A stretch of 64,000 bases of DNA from Kalaharituber pfeilii (lineage: Eukaryota > Ascomycota > Pezizomycetes > Pezizales > Pezizaceae), in assembly GCA_015179045.1 (NCBI GenBank), contig WHUZ01000076.1:62001-126000 (forward strand), written 5' to 3'. A program made the position numbers and the translations under genes. The notes beneath the pieces are model-generated. The model was not told the origin of the DNA, made no database searches, and was given only the letters and a program-made list of their open reading frames with translations. This document shows, piece by piece, positions 5,025 to 57,730 of this stretch; the stretch's first letter is position 1, and every line of letters begins with the position of its first letter.

Positions 5025-5886
5025 CCGGTGGCCTCAGTTGCATGTGCAAAAGCCAGTGTTTACAGTAAATAGTCAGATGAGGCGGCTGCTTTAAGCGTTA
5101 TTGAGATGCGGGCTCCAGATTCCATTGCATATGCACGCTTCAACTTTGTATATATTATACGTCGCCAAGGCCAAATGTAGGCACCTGGCATTCGGTCACC
5201 TCTTCCATTTGAACACTCTACCGGTACCTAGGCTCAAAAAAAAATTTCTCTGCAAAGAGAAACTGCGGAACGCCTCCTCTAAAGGTTATGATAGGCTGTA
5301 TTTGATTACACATCTAGTGAGGCAAGATTTGAATTTTCGGAGAATTGTTTGTGCCCTCCTACACTGGCAGCATATGTATACTTGAATGTCACTGTACGTA
5401 TACATGGATTATGAACGTTGGCGTTGACTGACGAAGCCAACCGAGGTGGGTAGACAAATCTGAAGGACCTCCTTCGTAACCAACTCTAAAACTTCCATCG
5501 CAAAGATTCGTAATAAGGAGTACGTCGGATAACTATATCACGGTCGCGGAGCGGAGTAACATGACCACATAGGTTTCTCAACACAGTTAGGTACAGGAAT
5601 GGATATGGTGATCTGTTTATGTAACCTTATGGTTTATTTATAAAACTGCAAACTTAAAAGGCGGTTAGTCGGTGAAGTAAGCCCTTAGTTGCGCGTATGC
5701 GATGTCTTTCATGCTTTCCAATGGACAGATTGGGGAATCTATAATTGAACGTAACTACAGTCTGCGAGCATAATGCTAAACGCTGACGAGCAATTTAGCT
5801 CGTTTGTGGCATACAGGTAAAGAATTGTGATATTCAACGGCAGTCCACATGTCTTTCCTCTATATGGAATGGTAGCGTGGCGACGA

Positions 5887-5920
<34 letters not shown>

Positions 5921-9204: not shown

Positions 9205-10084
9205 TATCACAATCTCATTGTACCATTTGGATCTCGAAATTTCAATGCGTTACTGTCTTTTTTATGCCTAGAATATTAGCAATATATACAGGGCCGCACC
9301 TTGTCAGCTCATGCATTTCGGTGTGGTTTCGAACAATGTTGACATGATAGTTTGTATACGGAGTCACCTCAAAATGAACTCTGTGGGGCCGTTATGCAAG
9401 AGTTCATCGCAATATGCCTATTTAGCTAGCGCGAGCAACCTTCCCCCAGTCAGGGCGTATGATTTGCAACATTGCGGATGTTATACCGACGACTATGGAT
9501 CCATTAACACTTGCGGAGTATCCCTGCTCACTAACCCCTTCTTCAATAAAACGGCCTTTATGTAAGAATCATGTAATCTACTAGGTTGACAGGGAGCAAG
9601 GGTGGATACGGCAGCCGCAGGTAGAAGTATCTAAGTATGTAGAGCTTGAGTGGAGATTTTTTTTTTTTTTTTTATTTCACGTGACCCCGCGTGCAGCTGT
9701 TCGCCATGGCAGGCCGAGTGGGGATTGCATACAGCAGTGGAAGGGAGTCTACAATCTATTGCTATCACCGTTGAAGGCTATATCTCAGGAACTGACTGAT
9801 ACCGAGGAAGGCGTAAACAGAGTTAAGTTCGTGAAAGCGGAAGCAGGGGCCGTGCCGGGAGCCAGAGGTCGCGAGTGTTGATCGTGGGAAATAATAAGTT
9901 GTGCAAATTTCTATTTCTATGTTCTTGTACGTAGCCTCTGACTAACTCTCGTCGGCGGGATACCAGTACTGTACTGAACTCCCCCCCCCCAAAAAAAAGT
10001 ACTAATGGAGGTGAGGAGCGAGATGTAAAGCTGTTGGCAGATCAACTCTGCATTCGTCGGTACAACATAGCGCGATGACCATAA
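9205..10084. other. No gene seen apart from a LINE-B tail
   Basis: No supported coding region is present. The only recognisable item is the LINE-B tail at 9658-9715; a C/A homopolymer pair sits near 9982. Confidence 0.5.
9658..9715 (-). mobile_element. LINE-B tail-only insertion
   Basis: A T run is followed by atttcacgtgaccccgcgtg and cagctgttcgccatggcagg, the reverse complement of the LINE-B stem-loop. Flanks gagtggagat and gagtggggat look like a 10-bp target duplication with one change. Confidence 0.8.
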
Positions 10085-45879: not shown

Positions 45880-46701
45880 TTGCATAACAGTCCACCCTTG
45901 GGCCTTGGTGGCTTGTCCGTCATACCTCAGGCAGCTGGCTCCCTATTTCGCCTGCTCATCAGCTCCCTCATTGCCTTCAATCCCGACATGTGCCTTGACC
46001 CATGCAAGCATCACAGCCCCGGGATCTCTCACCCTCCACCTCCTTTCTGCCACCAGCTCCACCGCATATGCCAGATCTGCAGTCCTAGGGTTTCCGGTCC
46101 TTCCTGCCCTCTTGACAGTGCTGACAACTGCCTGGGAGTCTGCAAGCAGCAGAACCTTCGCATTGACATCAACAGCCTGGAGTGCTCGCCTCATGCCTGT
46201 CCCCTTGCCATCCCACACGGTAGCCTTGGCACCTACCCATCAGGACCTTTCCGACTATCCTGCTACAACCTGTCTCTAGCACCACCCACCTCGCACTCCA
46301 TCTTCTTCAATCTATAAAGATGGCTACCGAATTGCCCTTGGCCCCATTGATAGCTCTCCCCGACTTAGCATCCTCCTTCCCTAGCTTGAGATCGAAGATC
46401 GACCTGTGGTAGTGGGGTGACACTGCGTCCCCATGATATCCTCTCCTCCTCATCCGCCGCGAGCCTGCTTGCAATCCTGCCACCGATTCGAAGCCATCAG
46501 TCCTTTCTGCTCCCCATCCTATGCTGAAATCTCGCTATTTTTTTTTTTTTTTTTATATCATTACTCGCATGCCGCCCTCTGGGCTATGGCGAGGTGCTAA
46601 ATACATGAAATTGAATATATAAGGAAAAGTGAAGAAAATGAAGACTGCTCTGTTCAATGTAGGGGGGAGTCTTCCAGTTTCCAAAGGCCAACTGGTATTT
46701 A

Positions 46702-46800
46702 CTAGTCTGGTTGCACTACCCCTCGTAGAGGGTCTGGTCCAAAACATTGATTTTTTGTATGGCGCTCGGTTCAAGATGGTGTCTTGGCGGACGACACCAA
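46702..46800 (+). repeat. Left terminal inverted repeat (99 bp)
   Basis: It starts ctagtctggttgcactaccc and ends tggcggacgacaccaa. It is the perfect reverse complement of 56218-56316. Near the inner end ggtgtc and gacacc form a 6-bp inverted pair around ttggcggac, a possible protein-binding site. Confidence 0.97.
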
Positions 46801-46926
46801 GTTTTAGTCCACACTTGTACTGGTGGTCTACACCTGCCCTATACAATCACATCACGTCTGGTAATAACAAAACACAAAGAACAACAACACAAAGAACAAC
46901 CTAGGATTATCAATAAATCACACCTC

Positions 46927-49164
46927 ATGCCGAGGGCTCCAAAGAAAAGCACACCAGTGGGAAGGATACCAAAGTCGTCAAATACAGAGCTAGAAGGTAG
47001 CCCGCAGCCAGACCTTGTTTCGCCAGTCGCAGTAAGGATAGAAACCCCAGACACAGATAGGTACAAGATGTGGACAGAGGATTCATCCGCATTTGAAACA
47101 CCCTGTAAACGGCCGCGAACGTCAAGTGGAGCGAAAGAAAGTGGGGTGAAAGAATTAATACCCATGCTGAGCCAACTCAAATGGGTACACCCTGATATGA
47201 AAGGTGATACGGAGGTGGCTTTTACTGCAACTTCCGCAGAACTAGTGGGTTGTGTGAACTTTTATGTGAGGGTCAGCATGTGGAAAAAAAGAGAGATCAC
47301 AAAGGTTGACCGGGATCATTTCGTCCAAGCTGCATTTGGTGTCTCCTCATTTCAGTTAAACCTATCGGAAGCTGATGGGGACTCAAAAAAAATCAACGAG
47401 CCAATTGGAATAATAGTTGCTAGACAAATCGGTCTATATGCTAAGAGCGTTCTCAGAAAATTGAGAATGCATTTTGAGGCACTGTTGCGAATGTTCTTGG
47501 AATGTGAGGAAGCGAATGCTATTGTCAGCTCCATCTTATTCCAAATCAAAGCACGGGGTTCAGAAAGCATCAGGTTGGAACACCCCTGCGTGGATCCTAC
47601 CGAAGTAAAGAATATCTTTATTAAAGATAATTTACGACTTGTTTGCGACGTGTGGCACCCGATTATTGATGTGGTGGAAACCGATTATCTGTTAATAAAT
47701 CCAATGTGGGCGGAACGGTTTGTTAGAGCGACGTGTGAGGCACTCGCGTGGTTGATCACCTACTTTTTCAGATGTGAACGGGCGGAAGAACAAAGATCAT
47801 TTGAGTTGGGGAGATGCCCGGTTAATGCGGAGCAGATTACGGCTTGTATCTTCAAAGGAGACCTGGCGATGATACCGGAGTGGCCTCTAATTCGGAAGCC
47901 AATGAAATGGTCACAAAGGAAAGGAGCATCGACAGTGTACGGTGCACTAAAACATGTGAAGATCCAACGGGATTTGGCAGAGTCATTTGTTGACGATGAC
48001 ATCGACCGTGAAATTCGCCATCCAGAGTCCGGTATTACAGTGCCTAAGGCACCCCAGGGAATGAGAGAGATGTTCGAATGTGAGTCTATGTATACACAGG
48101 CTGATTGGGTGGTCAGTGTATTGCAAGCAAGAGCGCAGGCAATGAGGTCTTTACAAACAGAGACTATGCGGACTGCGAAGGCACTTGAGGAGAAATCAGA
48201 AGCTCTGTTGGATTTCATGAAACAACACAAGTTAAATATGGAGGGGGCTGCATTGAATAAAATGCGAGAAATGAATGCAGAGCGATTCTTGGTGGAAGCG
48301 AAAAAATTATTTATAGAAGCAGAATCAAGAGAGTGTGCACCTGCTCACCTTGGAAGAGTGCCGGCACAAATGATATCCACTACGGAAATATGGGGAGGAT
48401 TTGCGGCATGGGTAGGGTTATGCAAAAAGGAAGGTTACTTTGGGCAGTTGGTGAATGCATATGATACGGGATTGATGGTTGGCAGCAGCGGAGTGATGAA
48501 TCCTATGATGGGGAATTTCGCAGGTGGTTATATGGGAGAAATGGGTATGGGGCGAGATGGGAATTATCTTGGGCATATGGGAATGCATTCAATGCAAAAT
48601 ATAAATGCTACACACATGCAGGGAAATGGCCAAACTGGGATAGGTAACCAAATGATGAATAATATGGGAGGAATGCTGGGAAGTCATCAAATGGGAGGGG
48701 TGCATATGAATGCGCATCATTTAGGGATGCAACAGATGAATGCAAATGGAACGGTGGGAGGACATATGGGAGGACAGCAGTTGGGTATGCATCAAATAGG
48801 AGGACAGCAAATGAGAGGACAGCAAATAGGAGGACAGCAAATGGGAGGACAGCAAATGGGAGGACCGCAAATGGGAGGACAGCAACAAATTGGGAATGGA
48901 GCGCAGAATCAACTACAGATGGGAAATCAACAGCAAATAGGCAATGCAGCACAAATGGCAAATCAAAATATGAATATGGGAAATCAAGTGATGACGAATT
49001 CACAGATGGGTCTAGGAAATCAGATGATGGGGATGGGAAATCAGATGATGGGGATGGGAAATCAAGGAATGGGGAATCAGCAAATAGGAATGGGACAAAT
49101 AGGAATAGGACAAATAGGAATAGGAGCTCAAGGGTGGCGGGTGCTCACATGCAAGGGCAGATGA
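46927..49164 (+). CDS. Unknown transposon protein with Met/Gly/Gln/Asn-rich tail
   Basis: 745 aa from the ATG at 46927 (MPRAPKKSTPVGRIPKSSNT). This start is preferred over an ATG inside the terminal repeat at 46759. Residues 1-90 are basic and disordered (CKRPRTSSGAKES). About 90-510 look folded and helical (LNLSEADGDSKKINEPIGII; LRKLRMHFEALLRMFLECEE; a coiled stretch AKALEEKSEALLDFMKQHK). From about 515 to the end the protein is almost only M, G, Q and N (GGQQMGGQQMGG, NQMMGMGNQMMGMGNQ), as in prion-like condensate-forming tails. The frame ends at 49164, but the same composition continues in another frame to 49664 (ending in a charged EEGVGPEKSMEK segment), so a frameshift probably removed about 165 residues. 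I do not recognise the folded part. Confidence 0.78.
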   Translation: MPRAPKKSTPVGRIPKSSNTELEGSPQPDLVSPVAVRIETPDTDRYKMWTEDSSAFETPCKRPRTSSGAKESGVKELIPMLSQLKWVHPDMKGDTEVAFTATSAELVGCVNFYVRVSMWKKREITKVDRDHFVQAAFGVSSFQLNLSEADGDSKKINEPIGIIVARQIGLYAKSVLRKLRMHFEALLRMFLECEEANAIVSSILFQIKARGSESIRLEHPCVDPTEVKNIFIKDNLRLVCDVWHPIIDVVETDYLLINPMWAERFVRATCEALAWLITYFFRCERAEEQRSFELGRCPVNAEQITACIFKGDLAMIPEWPLIRKPMKWSQRKGASTVYGALKHVKIQRDLAESFVDDDIDREIRHPESGITVPKAPQGMREMFECESMYTQADWVVSVLQARAQAMRSLQTETMRTAKALEEKSEALLDFMKQHKLNMEGAALNKMREMNAERFLVEAKKLFIEAESRECAPAHLGRVPAQMISTTEIWGGFAAWVGLCKKEGYFGQLVNAYDTGLMVGSSGVMNPMMGNFAGGYMGEMGMGRDGNYLGHMGMHSMQNINATHMQGNGQTGIGNQMMNNMGGMLGSHQMGGVHMNAHHLGMQQMNANGTVGGHMGGQQLGMHQIGGQQMRGQQIGGQQMGGQQMGGPQMGGQQQIGNGAQNQLQMGNQQQIGNAAQMANQNMNMGNQVMTNSQMGLGNQMMGMGNQMMGMGNQGMGNQQIGMGQIGIGQIGIGAQGWRVLTCKGR

Positions 49165-49664
49165 TGGGCGGGAATATGATGAGTACACAGATGATGGGGT
49201 CGATGTATCCAGGGAGAAGAGTTTTGCCAGGGCTCCAGGGATTTGGAGATATGCATACTGCGAATCTAGGAAGCGGAAATGGGATAGGAATTGGGGAATG
49301 TCATCATGGGATTGGAGATAAAAATGGAGGAGGAATTGGGACAAATATAGGTGGAGGTGTTGCAGCTTTGGGGAGTGGAGGGAACGTTGGAAGTGGAAAT
49401 GGAGGGGAGACTGGCGCGATGGCTCCAGGCATGATGGGCCCACCGGCAAGACCTGCCATGAGGGAAGTTGGATGTCATAATGAGCAAGGCGGTCGTACGA
49501 GTGACACTGGGGGGAAGCGAACAGGAGAAGAGGGCGTAGGGCCGGAAAAGTCAATGGAGAAGATTGGAATGAGTGTGCTTGGGGGTGATATCAATAGTCC
49601 TTGTGGAGAAGGAGAGAATTGTAGAGAGGGATCGGTCCCGGATAAGATGGTAGAGGGAAATTAG

Positions 49665-50397
49665 CCTCCTTTATGAAGGAGAGGGCCATAGGGCAAAGAG
49701 TCTGGTTGAATTAGCTTACAAGTAGGATTTCTTCGAAGGGGAAAGGCTGAGTCTAGTGGACAGATCTAGCAGAATGTGCTTGGGCATGATCAGATAGTGG
49801 TAACCTCGCATAAAATTGGTGTATAACTGATGATAGAGTGACTTCATTAGCTAAAGAGAATAGACATACATATGCTTCAGTCTGGTTACGAGACTATGCT
49901 TCAGTATACTGAGTCTAGTGATATAATAAGCATTTATCCCCATACTGTCCTAGCACGACGGCATGATGTCCCAACTGCTGAAAGTGGAAGCTGGTGTATA
50001 TGGTTGCAGAGGCAGGAGATGTTTGAAATTCTGCGAGGGTTGCTGTAACGACTCAACTATTACTCAAGAGCTCCCGGCTCCGGTCCTGTACTGGCAACCG
50101 ACATACAATATGCCCTGCCTTGAATGTTCTCTACACTTCTACCCAGTTCCAGTCGCGTCTACCTCTTTCTGTCTGCTTCTCGTATTACCCCTATAGGTTA
50201 TTGTGGAATGAACTGGTCCTGGGGCGGCTCTCTATAAAGGAGGCCCCCCACCCGCATCCCTCTGGGTTCTTCACCTACAACTTGTATTCTCTCTCCAAGT
50301 TGTAGTTTAGCCTCAATAAAATACATTTACCATTTGACAAGTTACCTAGCACCGACCCCCTGTACGCCGTTCCCGCCGACCGCCCAACTGACGCAAA
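49665..50397 (+). promoter_or_regulatory. Upstream region of the helicase gene
   Basis: A TATAAA box lies at 50233-50238, about 165 bp before the helicase ATG, followed by a pyrimidine-rich stretch (ttcttcacctacaacttgta) and aataaaatac at 50315. From 50042 (tgtaacgactcaactattac) the layout resembles a fungal solo LTR that may supply the promoter, but matching LTR ends and duplications were not found. Confidence 0.4.
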
Positions 50398-53300
50398 ATG
50401 AGCACTGAAAATTCCGAATCAACGCCGAAAAACATGTCTTCTTCTCTACAAGAGTGGGAGCAAACGAGAGAGTATTATGACAAAGAGCGACTTCTGAGAT
50501 GTCTCACGAAGGATCGTACCTTGTTCGACCCAAAACCGGCACAACTACGCTTTGCAATGTGCTTGTTCTTCGGACATGATGTATCTTGCGTGGCAGCTAC
50601 AGGATTCGGGAAGAGTTTAGCATTCCAAATGACAACCTTCCTATTGGAAAAAAGAAACCGATCACGACCAAAGAATAAGCAATTTGGCGTAATCATCACG
50701 CCCATTGAAGCACTTGGAGAAGACCAAGTAACACAATGCGCCAAGTTAGGAATACCAGCAATCTCTTTAACAGATTCAGTGATGCACTCAAATCCCAAAG
50801 TTATTGAAGATATTATGAATGGAGAGTTCTTACTAGGTACGTAGGGTCTCAAAGGTCCAACACCCTGGCTAATAATAATACATTTACAGTTTACTTGGCA
50901 CCAGAGAGATTGATGGAAAAGGATAGTCCATTACAAAAATTGATAAAATATCAAAGAGTCAAGATTAAGGAACGAATTGCATTTGTTGTTGTGGATGAAT
51001 GTCACTTGGTAGAGGATTGGTGAGTTCCAAATTGTTCGGTGTCGTCGCACTTGTACCTGGTGTCTTGGGGGGTTGTGTGGGTGTCGTCGCTGGTGTCTTG
51101 GGGGGTTGTGTGGGTGCCGTCGCACTTGTACCTGGTGTCTTGGGAGGTTGTGTGGGTGTCGTCGCTGGTGTCTTGGGGGGTTGTGTGGGTGTCGTCGCAC
51201 TTGTACCTGGTGTCTTGGGGGGTTGTGTGGGTGTCGTCGCTGGTGTCTTGGGGGGTTGTGTGGGTGTCGTCGCACTTGTACCTGGTGTCTTGGGGGGTTG
51301 TGTGGGTGTCGTCGCTGGTGTCTTGGGGGTTGTGTGGGTGTCGTCGCACTTGTACCTGGTGTCTTGGGGGGTTCTGTGGGTGTCGTCGCACTTGTACCTG
51401 GTGTCTTGGGGGGTTCTGTGGGTGTCGTCGCACTTGTACCCGGGTGCCGTCGCACTTGTACCTGGTGTCTTGGGGTACATTTGGTGCCGTCGCCTGCGGT
51501 CCCGTAGCTTGACACCCGCATTGTACTATCCTTCTACCCTTGATACCCACAAAATATTAACGAATTTACTGTTCAATATTGCTAATACTGATTTGAGATT
51601 AGGGGAAATGATTTCCGAACAGATTTCTCAAAATTAGACACTTTCCGCTACAAAATCCCTGGAGTACCCTTTGGAATGTGCACAGCAACAGCTACGCCAG
51701 AGAAACTCAAACGAATTAGGAAGGGTCTTGGGATTCAGAAGACAGCAATCAGTATCGTGGAACCGATCAACAGGACTAATCTATTCTTCGCAGCTCGTGA
51801 GATCCGTGGGGGAGGTGACATTGAAGGAGCTGGAGATCTTGATTTCTTGATTCCCCCATGTAAAGATCAGGGGAGAGAGTATGACCAAAGAGAGATTCCT
51901 CCTACTATTATCTACGTGGATGATAAATTATTGGCTCACAAAATTGTGCAGCATCTGCAATCACTTCTACCTCCTATTACAAATAATCGCCCAGAACCTG
52001 AAAATCGTTGGGATTTCGATCCAAGATCTAGGGCTGAGAAAATTGTAACGGTGTATCATGCTACATTATCTGCTGTCATGAAGGAATATACTCAAGCTGA
52101 TTGGAGGGCAGGCGTCACTCGTATATTGGTTGCAACTTCTGCATGGGGGATGGGAATTAACGATAAACATGTCCATAGAGTTATCCAGTGGAAGGCCAAG
52201 GACATGAATAACTTGGATACATTGATCCAAAGGTTTGGACGATGTGCTAGAGATTCTACTATCCAAGGGTTTTGTCTCTTATTCTACGAGAAGGATTGTT
52301 TCGGAGATCGTTTAATCTCACCTACACCAAGGAAACGAACTGCAGACGGGGAACCTAAAGAGCGCAGAACACCGGCCGAAATTCGCGGTACAATGGAAAC
52401 GGGGCTTTACCGTTTCATAAACACCCCAGGGACTATTAAATGTCGCCGTAAGATTATATTGGGTCACTATGCAGACCAACAATACAATGATGAGACTTTG
52501 TATAATGGCATCTGTTGTGATCTTTGTGGTACCGATCATATCGATAGGTTAGCACCCGAGGTCTTTGATACGGTGGTCTTATTCCGGCCCCCAAATTCAC
52601 GAAGTACCTCAAAATATCCCACCACTCCTAATGAGTTACAATTGTCTCTTCGTTCTATACTTTCGAGTTTGCGCAAAGAGATCCTGCACAAAGAATACCC
52701 AAAGTCAAGATTACATGTAGACTCATGGATTATGAGTACGGAACAGATTCATATCCTCGCCACCAAATGTCGCGGAATTCATTCACCCGCAGATCTCTTC
52801 AAAATCCCAGGCCTCACATTTGACAGAATGTTCAGGAAATATGGTAATTACTCCTCATACATCCGTAATGGCAATATCACTAACTCTTACCAAGCTTCAC
52901 TTATCTTTACCCAAATCCATCATCATATCCAGAGCTATTATGCGGTGCACGAGTCGCAACCCCCATTGTCTCAAACAAATACCAGCCAGCCTTCTCAACC
53001 ACTCAGTGTTGCAGCTGAAGTTCAGACAGCTCTCATAGCATCAATTGCAGAACATCCTGCCAATATATCCGCTACTTCTAGTATGGTAACCGATCCTAGC
53101 AATAATGTATTACCAGCCTGGAAACAATTAAGCGACATGTACTCCCGCGAAACGGTTATTACACTTAAAACACTTTTGCGTACACGCAAACTCCCCGTAA
53201 GTGGACTAAAACCAGTCCTAGTGGACAGACTGATCCAGTTTGATTTGGCACAATTCCTCCCACCTGTGACTGCCTCCTCAACCTCCGCAGCAGTCGATAG

Positions 53301-53553
53301 TATCACTCTTCAAGATCTAACCAACATCCCACAACCTCCACGACGTCGACTACCTCCACAATGCCAGAGCAAACAACATTCTTCAGTACCTCAAACTCCT
53401 CGCCGTAGACAACGGGATAATTCAGTTCAAGCTACTCCTACCCAGGAAAATTTAGAAAATTCACCTCCTACACCAAGGTGGAGACCTGTTCTCGTACCTG
53501 GTGCAAACTTTTCGCCTGCACCTATGACACCCTCGCGATCCCGGCGTTATTGA
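50398..53553 (+). CDS. RecQ-type DNA helicase with SAP motif
   Basis: ATP-driven 3'-5' DNA unwinding is the known RecQ activity. Exons: 50398-50836, 50890-51019, 51603-53553; the product is 839 aa. Visible motifs: Walker A ATGFGKS (67-73), YLAPERLMEK (148-157), DECH (182-185), DFRTDF then CTATATPEK (193-224), TIIYVDDKLLAHKIV (motif IV), ATSAWGMGIND (367-377), QRFGRCARD (399-407). A RecQ-Ct zinc site follows (CRRKIILGHYAD then CCDLC, Cys 470/494/495/498). A C-terminal SAP-like helix pair (TLKTLLRTRKLPVSGLKPVL, about 710-730) predicts DNA binding. The tail is basic and Pro-rich (TPRRRQR). Intron 1 is 53 bp. Intron 2 is 583 bp and filled by a minisatellite; reading into it hits a stop at once. 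In the transposon the helicase may help strand opening or replication during movement (inference). Confidence 0.92.
51047..51478 (+). repeat. Intronic minisatellite (42- and 33-bp units)
   Basis: Alternating long and short units, the short one lacking acttgtacc, make a 75-bp higher-order period within helicase intron 2. Each unit contains tggtgtcttgg (about eleven copies) and most contain ggtgtcgtc. Both words occur in the inner end of the terminal inverted repeat (one on each strand). The tract lacks stops in several frames on both strands, giving spurious long open frames. Confidence 0.93.
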
Positions 53554-53632
53554 TAACTCTAAACTACTTTGCAAATACCAATGTATAGCTCAATCCACAT
53601 TCATGAATGTACTGTTTAATGTCAACTTCTGC

Positions 53633-56105
53633 TTAATTCACAATTCCAATTTCCTCCAAATCTATATCTTCTGGACTCTTCTCTCTACTTCCCAATGACT
53701 GCAAAATGCTAACTCTTGCACAACCTGGGGAACGCATCAAATAATCGTTCCACCACACACCATCCACCATTCTAGCCAATCCTGCCTCCATCATATCCCT
53801 ACACTCATGTACCATACCAGTCCCAGGCGCACCTCTGCCTGCCACAAATTCCGTAACTTTCTCACTCAACAGAAAATCTACCAATGCCAGAATATCTGGC
53901 CCTCGATCTTGCTTGACATGATTTCCAGCTCTTCGACGCAGCCCCATTCCACGTCTCATATCATCCTTAATTCTCATGAAGAAGACCACACATCGACATG
54001 TTACCTCCCTCATGAAGTTATCCAATGTATCTGAACCTCCTGGATTATATATGTCTTTCAAGCTGCGCACAAGCTCTTCCATGAATTCATCCATTCCTAA
54101 CGTCTTTCCCGTCTGTCCCCAAGGATTAATCACCCAATTTGCCCTTACAATTTTTTTCAGTTCTTCTGACCATTCTGCTTCCATACCGACACGGATGTCC
54201 ATCAATGCATCTCCATAATTCATTTGCCGATTTCCAATGAATTGTGGCCCCCACAACTCTAACATCAATTGCATAGCTCCTACATCTCCTCCTCGCATAG
54301 ACTTATAATATGCACGAAACTCCAGTGCTTGTCTGGTGAAAAGCAGTAAATTTTCTAGTATCACATCTCTTTCCTCATAGTCTACAGCCCCTCTCTGTTA
54401 GCGGATCATTAACCTACATAAGAAGAGAATACTGACCTTTCATTTGACATATAGGGACATATGAGTACTCTAGCATACTGTCCAATTTTCCTACTATCTC
54501 CTCGATCTTACATTCCCCCGTCACTATACGACTACGGAAATCATCTATGCTCGCACAATCGCTAGCCCGAACCATAAGAGCAATCAGGCATCCATCGAGA
54601 GCATCCTTGCATATATCCATGCATGCCCATAGGTTTGTAGCGTCCTCATCTATGTATTGCCGCCGTAATTTTTTGTTCATATATTGCAATGACCCTGGCA
54701 CACTCCCATCCCTGGGCCCCAAATGCTTTTTCATGATCATCTTCATAAAATTCATTGCAGTATGCAAAGGACCTAATAATGGCAGAACGAACTTAAAGTC
54801 CTCTCCCGGAACATCACTTTCTCTTAACCGTTGGATACTTTTCACTCTTGAGACCAAGAGATGATCGCCTCCTACTAAATATATTCCTTTCATCAAGTCC
54901 TGGTTCGTATATCCCAAGTCCTTTGACAAGCAACGTTTTATACTTTCCAGATTCCCAGTTGTACTTGCTTGCTCAATAGCCATCAAGTCCAGTGGGTATA
55001 TTTTTGCGCTCTCCATATATAGGACCTCTACTCGTGGTTTCTCGAACAACTTCTCTGTTTTCTGTCCTATTGCTATCCCCCTAACTACCATTCTTTCTAA
55101 CAGCTCCTCCATATAGTACTTCCTATAATGGCACATGAAGTCCAACGCCGCATCGGACGGCGCCAAATCCCTGGGATCTAAACTCACTCTTTTTGTTGCT
55201 GATAACCATTCTCTAGGAATTCGTCGAGTTCCCGGTGGTACACCTACTACCTTCGTGGCAAACCCTCCAGTACTATTATCTATCATGGACATCCTTGTAC
55301 TGCTCCCATCACGTACCCCAACCTTTTGATTGACGTTGTCAATATTAATCTTCATTGGGTACACCGCACTTGTTAATTTTAGATCTTTTCGGAGGTCACT
55401 TGCTAACTTCCGCATGGCTCCTATTAAATGGTTGTAGGAGCAGGTCATACCCAAGCCATGTAAAACCTCAATTCCAGATTTTTGAAGATGACTGGCATGC
55501 AAGAAGACTCCCATTAAAGTCTGGAATGCATTCACCTTTTGGTTCCGTGCATTCAATATACACATGATTGAGCATGTAATAACTTTCTTAACTCCTGACC
55601 TTCTCTTTATTTGGGCTTCCTCAGATGATCCTCTTATAAGTGTTACTCTTTCCAGTATTTTCCACAGAGTAGGTAATGACATCCTTGCCACTTCCTCCAT
55701 ATCATCTAATGATTTGGTTATAGCCCCTTCCGAGTCCTTTTCAATGTCCTTGCGAACATAACGCAATATTGAGCTTTGGTCATCCAGTACATTTTTGATC
55801 TCTTTGTCACATAGACTAATCACGTTGTCCAAGAGCATCTCCTCCGGCACTTTATCCATTAATGGTAGCCATAACGATACAATTTCACATGCTCCAGAGC
55901 GCATAAAATTATTTCGTGAGACTTTAGTTTGATCATTCTCAGTCCATGCATTCAGAAACCCGCGAATACCTCCGAAATGTTGATTGATTTTCTCCATTAT
56001 TTCCACCAGCTTAGGTGCAGCTTCCTCACGTGCAGCTAGAGTTCTCCAATGGGGGGCTGCCTCAACGGGTTTGGGTGGTCGGCCTCTTCTATTTGTATTC
56101 TCCAT
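53633..56105 (-). CDS. DUF6589-like protein, putative transposase, with AT-hook
   Basis: Two exons: 56105-54433 and 54392-53633; the intron is 40 bp (gtattc..acagag) and keeps the frame; the product is 810 aa. The start at 56105 gives MENTNRRGRPPKPVEAAP, where RRGRPPKP is an AT-hook for minor-groove DNA binding. The core resembles the fungal DUF6589 family: MKINIDNVNQKVGVRDG near residue 256, YLVGGDHLLVSRVKSIQRLR near 414, then FVLPLLGPLHTAMNFMKMIM and PGSLQYMNKKLRR. In exon 2, TLGMDEFMEELVRSLKDIY near 660. Asp 256, Asp 414 and Glu about 663 are candidates for an RNase H-fold DDE triad. That role is inferred from motif order and from location in a TIR element, not shown. The family name is from memory. 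The stop lies 79 bp from the helicase stop (convergent). Confidence 0.8.
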
Positions 56106-56217
56106 ATTAGGAAATATTCTCAGGATTGAGCAGGGTTCTCTTCGCAATGAGTGGATAGGTCACGATTTTCAAGGATATTGTTTAGTGTGGTGTTTAGGTG
56201 ATTACAGGTTGCTACTA

Positions 56218-56316
56218 TTGGTGTCGTCCGCCAAGACACCATCTTGAACCGAGCGCCATACAAAAAATCAATGTTTTGGACCAGACCCTCTACGAGGGGT
56301 AGTGCAACCAGACTAG
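56218..56316 (-). repeat. Right terminal inverted repeat (99 bp)
   Basis: It is identical to 46702-46800 in reverse complement and is followed by the target duplication gtattta (56317-56323). Confidence 0.97.
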
Positions 56317-57730
56317 GTATTTACTGTGCTTTTTTTAGGCTCTGTAAGGCTAGCACGGCCTTGTGACCATTTCTGGTCCCCCTGCGCGAATTTCATACTG
56401 TGGGATTGCCCCACTCGCGCTGTCCACAGGCCCTACAACTGTACGAAGGTTGCAGGTTAGGGCAGTCGTTTCACTTGAACCAACTCAGGGCACCACCCAA
56501 GTGAGTACGATACTCTCCCTGCCATAGGCTTGTCACATCGTTTGCACCTTAAGCACCTTCGCTAAGCCCGCAACTTCGGATGAAGCCACTCCGACCGCTG
56601 GCACCGACGTAAGCATCCGTCCTCTCGGACCGTTGGACTCCCCACATGAAATCTCGCTAGTCTCTCCCTTTCTCTCCCTCTTGGTCCGAATCTGTAGCTC
56701 AAGACCTTTGAAGCATTCCCGCCACAAGTCCCCCACCCATGCGAGATCCGTTACTTACTTCAGTGTGTACCTTGCTTGGCCCTGATCTATTATCGTTGTT
56801 ATGCTCTCAACCCCCTGCGATCACCTCCACTTTCTCTCTGCTGCCCCTCTGACAGCTCCAGTGCACTTTCGAAGTGCCTGATATTGTAGCCTCTTAAACT
56901 CCTCGGGATCCCTCCATTGCCTGTGGCCACTCCAGCCAATCTCAGACCGCTACGTGGCTGCCCTTGTCATACCGGTATATGCCTTCCGCCATGAAAGGGG
57001 GCTCATGCCCCACGGCCAGTTCCGCAGTCCTGATAACGCCCCAGGAGCTTTCTGGCCTTTTCAATCCGGCCCTTCCAATGGTGGTCGAAATCAAGAGCGC
57101 GGTGCAAATCACCCCTAGCCATTTCTTCCTCTCAACCTCATTGCGTTCTTGCCAATGACCAGGACCTCCCCCTTCGAGGCCTCAGAGTCGAGTGGCAGGT
57201 CATGAGCCTTAGCTACCTCCCTAATTACTCCTGCAATCCTATCTCAATTTCGCCTCATGCCTTGCCCCCTTTTGGATCCCAGTTCACCGCCACGCAGTTG
57301 ATGTTGATGAATGACAGTAGTTCCAACTCGCACTGAGACTCCCTTGCTGCCTTTTGCTCCATCTCCTCCAATCTTGGTGACATGAAGATTAGAAATGCTG
57401 TCCCCTGTCGCACACCCATATTCGGCTCCTCACTTACCCACCCCACGCAACCTCAAATTCCAGCCCACAAAAGAAAGTCTTGGCCATGGCACCATTTCCA
57501 AGCGGCTGACCCTTGAACAAGCGCCCTGACAACCTCCCACCATGTGTTCCCAATCTGCCCTTGACATCCTCCCGTGACCCCCACAACACCACCGTTCCCT
57601 GCGAGCACTCTCTGGCTAGCTACCACAGCTTCGAACAAGGCATCAATAGCAGGTTTGCTGTTTGCCATGAAGGCAATTTGCTGATATCCAGTATCGCCTA
57701 TAGTCCCAACTTTGGGAGGGACCAGTTGAT

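Follow-up and report, generated by a model that had tools for sequence, protein, structure and literature searches.

The analysed stretch of Kalaharituber pfeilii DNA, hereafter referred to as the window, comprises 64,000 bp (C335:62001-126000) and was compared with the assembly from which it originates (78.0 Mb, 360 contigs). It harbours an element bounded by two arms (46702-46800 and 56218-56316), which represent inverted repeats with 100% complementarity. The arms enclose three genes: a third gene encoding a protein with a Met/Gly/Gln/Asn-rich tail (46927-49164, plus strand), a gene encoding a RecQ-type helicase with a C-terminal SAP domain (50398-53553, plus strand) and a DUF6589 gene on the opposite strand which encodes the candidate transposase (53633-56105, minus strand).

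The initial annotation described perfect inverted termini of 99 bp and a 7-bp target site duplication, gtattta. The complementarity of the arms is indeed perfect, but the comparison of copies ruled out this combination of lengths. When the genome was searched with the left end, 18 of the 29 matches listed began with query base 2, eight with query base 1 (including the window's own two) and three further in. Since the base preceding TAGTCT differs among the copies and 18 of the 29 listed matches begin at the second base, the true terminus is TAGTCTGG and the terminal inverted repeat (TIR) proper comprises 98 bp. The left TIR, starting with TAGTCTGGTTGCACTACCCC, spans 46703-46800 (plus strand), and the right TIR, deduced from the complementarity of the arms and the comparison of copies, spans 56218-56315 (minus strand). 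The element is flanked by a 9-bp duplication, GGTATTTAC, at 46694-46702 and, in identical form, at 56316-56324. The first base of the duplication is G and its last base is C, which is why the junctions could be read as 99 bp plus 7 bp.

The search for empty sites, which had been suggested for related strains, was conducted in the same genome with the window element and a second element (C57). With 40 of 276 candidates scored, 20 of the 42 genome matches listed for the window flanks, joined at one GGTATTTAC, crossed the junction. Four of the unfilled sites of the window element were read base by base; each contains a single GGTATTTAC and aligns without gaps over 187-193 bp with 99% identity. 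With the joined flanks of the C57 element, nine of the 50 matches listed crossed the junction with an identity of 69-80% (40 of 1843 candidates scored). Because of the 20 listed places that cross its junction, the window element can be placed inside another repeat of which unfilled copies exist elsewhere; this host repeat surrounds the element at 46656-46702 and 56325-56460. The inverted ends and the duplication of fixed length that characterise TIR (class II) elements are thus both present, in the form of the 98-bp TIR and the 9-bp duplication, together with empty sites and further copies, and the window element is a real DNA transposon. Its insertion was probably recent since its ends are identical.

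The third protein carries the Met/Gly/Gln/Asn-rich tail noted in the initial annotation. Its main reading frame stops at 49164, and a stretch of similar composition continues in another frame to 49664 (region 49100-49664), so that the frame change near 49164 may represent a frameshift or an unrecognised intron. Relatives of the gene were detected at C339 and C257. Neither the Pfam database nor the solved structures (E <= 1) provided a match for the third protein.

The helicase gene presumably consists of three exons at about 50398-50836, 50890-51019 and 51603-53553 (plus strand; splice sites judged by eye). The zinc and SAP regions attributed to it previously could be retraced in part: DEAD (E 1.7e-9), Helicase_C (E 2.4e-10) and SAP (E 7e-9) were recognised by Pfam, but the match to the RecQ zinc-binding domain remained under the Pfam cut-off (E 0.093; 13.9 versus 25 bits). 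Among the solved structures, the best matches of the last exon were RecQ5, BLM and WRN. In the helicase pieces of two further elements, C314 and C296, the zinc-binding domain scored better (E 1.1e-4 and 0.011, respectively), though likewise under the cut-off. No SAP domain was detected by Pfam in the scanned pieces of these two helicases; its detection in the window's helicase only is a point against the interpretation given below. Minisatellites occur in the RecQ gene of several elements. That of the window (51038-51478; repeat families D1 and D3) is located in an intron, and others were found at about 6132-6600 in L039 and at 5343-5920 in the C296 element (L048+L049). The minisatellites of the window and of C314 directly follow the exon encoding the DECH/DEAH box, apparently within the same intron.

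The DUF6589 gene is split into exon 1 at about 54438-56105 and exon 2 at about 53633-54394 (minus strand; splice judged by eye). Both exons match PF20231 (E 1.2e-28 and 4.7e-36; 100.5 and 124.8 bits compared to a curated cut-off of 27), and an AT-hook-like RRGRPPK was identified by eye close to the N-terminus, in agreement with the AT-hook protein resembling DUF6589 of the initial annotation.

The combination of the three genes is not restricted to the window. A search with PF20231 (39 of 39 candidates scored) yielded 23 DUF6589 loci after merging, and a search with the window's RecQ exon (68 of 76 candidates scored) yielded 40 RecQ loci. A RecQ match is located within 6 kb of 13 of the 23 DUF6589 loci, including the window, and all 13 pairs are convergent, the chance expectation being about 0.65% per locus. 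A second RecQ query revealed convergent matches at two more loci, in C314 near 148 and 161 kb (by eye). The remaining eight of the 23 loci showed no clear nearby RecQ match in either search, which speaks against the interpretation given below; among these, C235 contains a weak match of 49 residues and C329 is located at a contig end. The flanks of C312 and C58 are identical but oppositely oriented, so that alleles may be present among the DUF6589 loci.

Besides the window element, five more diverged elements possess the three gene positions and both ends: C314 (10,128 bp, duplication CTCGCTACG), C296 (9,616 bp, GCGGAATAA), C2 (9,301 bp, TGGCGAGGT), C57 (12,286 bp, GGTCTAATC) and C35 (10,152 bp, with 8 of 9 bases of the duplication matching). 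The trio is also present at C339, where the left end is not intact. In all seven loci the third gene is followed by the RecQ gene on the same strand and then by the DUF6589 gene on the opposite strand. The predicted co-occurrence of DUF6589, RecQ and third gene within matching inverted ends was hence encountered in this same genome, but with duplications of 9 bp instead of 7 bp. Within this genome the family has split into three or more diverged branches; that all evidence for the recurrence originates from a single genome has to be counted against the interpretation given below.

One copy, and apparently four more, contain the helicase gene in the absence of DUF6589. The C146 copy (L050, C146:533500-542500) comprises both ends, the RecQ gene and part of the third gene, and has neither DUF6589 nor a duplication. 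Near-identical RecQ genes of the C314 type were detected in C298, C336, C43 and C296 (near 139 kb) with a matching end at a distance of 2.5 to 3.3 kb, and the PF20231 search revealed no DUF6589 match near these four. Such copies fit non-autonomous elements that are moved in trans, but they count against the interpretation given below in that they show RecQ to be able to spread without DUF6589 in cis.

The length of the duplication was assessed in 14 long end pairs, counting C23 although its two ends are possibly not partners. Six of the pairs show a perfect duplication of 9 bp (window, C314, C296, C2, C57 and C317), four match at 8 of 9 positions (C35, C293 and the apparently allelic C312 and C58) and four lack a duplication (C79, C360, C146 and C23); the values for C293, C79, C360, C312 and C58 were read from the flanks by eye. 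Of 20 small regions, five belonged to the termini of long copies, the C317 pair accounting for two of these, and 15 remained as candidates for short copies. Eight of these have two exact ends, and all eight fit a duplication of 9 bp (six perfect, two at 8 of 9), where the script retained the pair with the better 9-bp match if several end pairs were possible. No exact end pair was found in the other seven candidates, including L052 with its imperfect left end and no duplication. In the perfect cases alternative lengths of 6-8 and 10-12 bp result in at most five matching bases. The 9-bp duplications have no evident sequence in common across the copies. C339 (L043) contains two insertions with fold-back structure, each about 46-54 bp long, at about 2249-2300 and 9295-9340. 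They consist almost wholly of the element's own ends, are flanked by GTTCTTAGT and GGTTGCAAC (9 bp each, by eye) and represent very small non-autonomous copies.

Comparison of the C57 and C2 elements yielded dN/dS ratios of 0.105 for the main piece of DUF6589 (548 codons) and 0.33 for an N-terminal piece of 279 codons. The RecQ gene gave 0.13 and 0.21 and the third gene 0.21, the main DUF6589 piece thus being under the strongest constraint of those measured. In this element pair the ratios suggest that all three genes are maintained by selection. The comparison of C314 and C146, which is based on few changes, gave a ratio of 0.73 for the RecQ gene, which is thus nearly unconstrained here, and of 0.65 for the third gene; the RecQ value weakens the case for the interpretation given below. 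Synonymous sites are saturated between C314 and C296 so that no ratio could be obtained.

The DUF6589 proteins of the seven loci share an identity of 19-49%, with 86% in the C2/C57 pair; in C314 the open frame extends over 993 aa. Four residues, numbered on the window's two exons placed one after the other, do not vary among the seven proteins, and their order is as expected for a DDE enzyme: D274 in INIDN (55338-55340), D432 in VGGD (54864-54866), H466 in GPLH (54762-54764) between the second Asp and the Glu, and E597 in ILEN (54353-54355), the candidate third catalytic residue (all minus strand). A further invariant Glu (MDEFMEE) is located beyond that of ILEN. Since D449, D593, D620, D685 and E689 are equally invariant, the catalytic residues named here are putative. 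The His motif has the form GxxH in six of the seven proteins and RxxH in one, which differs from the C/DxxH between the second D and E in the hAT/P/MuDR/Kolobok/Dada group (PMC9587614). In six DUF6589 proteins Pfam recognised DUF6589 throughout and, apart from that, a single chance-level match to BCAS2. The DUF6589 profile matched no solved structure at E <= 10, a single-sequence model of the window's exon 1 (no alignment) reached a mean pLDDT of 36.2, too low to be usable, and no relatives were confirmed among viral contigs and prokaryote genome contigs. The terminal sequence follows the DUF6589 group, with TAGTCTGG in the window and C339, TAGTCTC in C314, C296 and C35, and TGTTCTCG in C2 and C57, as would be expected where an element's own protein recognises the ends. 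Among the proteins of the element, DUF6589 is the best candidate for the transposase, in line with the proposal of the initial annotation.

The same element could be explained by an exchange of roles, with the third protein as the true transposase and DUF6589 as an accessory. The position of the third gene is constant in the seven loci, and the ratio of 0.21 suggests selection. However, two sets of third proteins have to be distinguished, {window, C339, C257} and {C314, C296, C57, C2, C35}, between which alignment revealed no significant homology, whereas DUF6589 is recognisable in all seven loci with D, D, H and E and contains the most constrained piece. We therefore consider this exchange quite unlikely, although the lack of significant homology between the two sets also counts against the interpretation given below. 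Long TIRs are usual for Mutator-like elements (MULEs). The window element, its TIRs being long, might accordingly be cargo of a MULE transposase acting in trans, with DUF6589, RecQ and the third gene as passengers; 71 MULE matches were listed in the genome, and the 9-bp duplication is within the range of 4 to 10 bp given for IS256/MuDR (PMC10045372). Passengers of this kind seem improbable in view of a trio whose order and orientation are preserved in diverged elements, of genes that look selected and of ends that differ by DUF6589 group. None of the listed MULE (71) and hAT (29) matches lies within the six complete elements (coordinates compared by eye); hAT elements are dealt with in PMC9674265. 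In the six DUF6589 proteins, moreover, no MULE domain was found at E <= 1.

According to a third alternative, the transposase has diverged and the element belongs to one of the known superfamilies with a helicase, KolobokH or AcademH. AcademH elements possess an Academ transposase and a short duplication, by which they would differ from the window element. They resemble it in carrying a helicase (PMC10799480). KolobokH elements, like the window element, are TIR transposons with a RecQ helicase of their own, which PMC9587614 places downstream of the transposase domain and reports from fungi only, and in Kolobok-1_CCri of a red alga the RecQ helicase is encoded on the strand complementary to the transposase, as in the window. 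The invariant His between the second Asp and the Glu also recalls the C/DxxH families. Kolobok-1_CCri encodes a Kolobok transposase, however, and Kolobok duplications are the 4-bp TTAA (PMC9587614), whereas the present element has a 9-bp duplication of no evident common sequence, a separate convergent RecQ gene, a third gene and a DUF6589 protein, for which Pfam gave no other match above chance level. We thus regard its membership in either superfamily as unlikely. The initial annotation took the RecQ helicase in a TIR element to be out of the ordinary; since KolobokH, Kolobok-1_CCri and AcademH carry a helicase, there are precedents for TIR elements of this kind, and these three were the only cases found in the literature searched. 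Helitrons have no TIR, no duplication and a Rep/helicase, while TIR, duplication and a RecQ-type helicase are found here. Zisupton elements (KDZ, Kyakuja-Dileera-Zisupton) generate 8-bp duplications (PMC12730594) compared to 9 bp in the window element, and no KDZ domain was detected in the six DUF6589 proteins; a genome-wide KDZ search gave no matches, its controls being equally silent. Multi-copy RecQ-like genes of fungi have been treated as subtelomeric (PMC7473861, PMC4522978), and the available text of these reports describes them at chromosome ends and not as TIR elements.

Taking these comparisons together, the window element is likely to be an autonomous-type TIR transposon of an undescribed superfamily, with DUF6589 as the transposase and RecQ and the third protein as its partners. 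DUF6589 would most likely be a very diverged DDE enzyme which binds the TAGTCT/TGTTCT ends, excises the element (cut-and-paste) or copies it (replicative transposition), and joins its 3' ends to target positions staggered by 9 bp; repair of this stagger would then give rise to the 9-bp duplication. RecQ and the third protein would be standing partners that probably assist in opening the ends or in the processing and repair of donor or target DNA.

On a broader scale we find it reasonably probable that a separate and so far undescribed superfamily with 9-bp duplications uses DUF6589 as its transposase and has RecQ and the third protein as standing parts of its machinery, and that many fungal DUF6589 genes and orphan RecQ genes are pieces of it. 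If so, a function would be assigned to a family of unknown function, and the eukaryotic DNA transposons in Repbase, of which 24 kinds are listed (cited in PMC12730594), would gain a superfamily. Genome annotation would have to treat DUF6589 genes, along with a part of the RecQ genes, as mobile-element genes, and a candidate transposase retained together with RecQ would make it testable why some transposons carry helicases. In the openly accessible papers searched, no mention of DUF6589 was found; relative to these papers, the novelty consists in a DUF6589 protein within a transposon.

The surroundings of the insertions share a further feature. The window, C2, C57 and C296 elements are all flanked, at close distance, by a LINE-like tail composed of poly-T, then ACTCGC or ATCGCG, and then GGGCTATGGCGA. 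This may reflect a target preference or merely the abundance of that repeat; the C57 flank bearing the tail gave the 1843 first-look candidates mentioned above.
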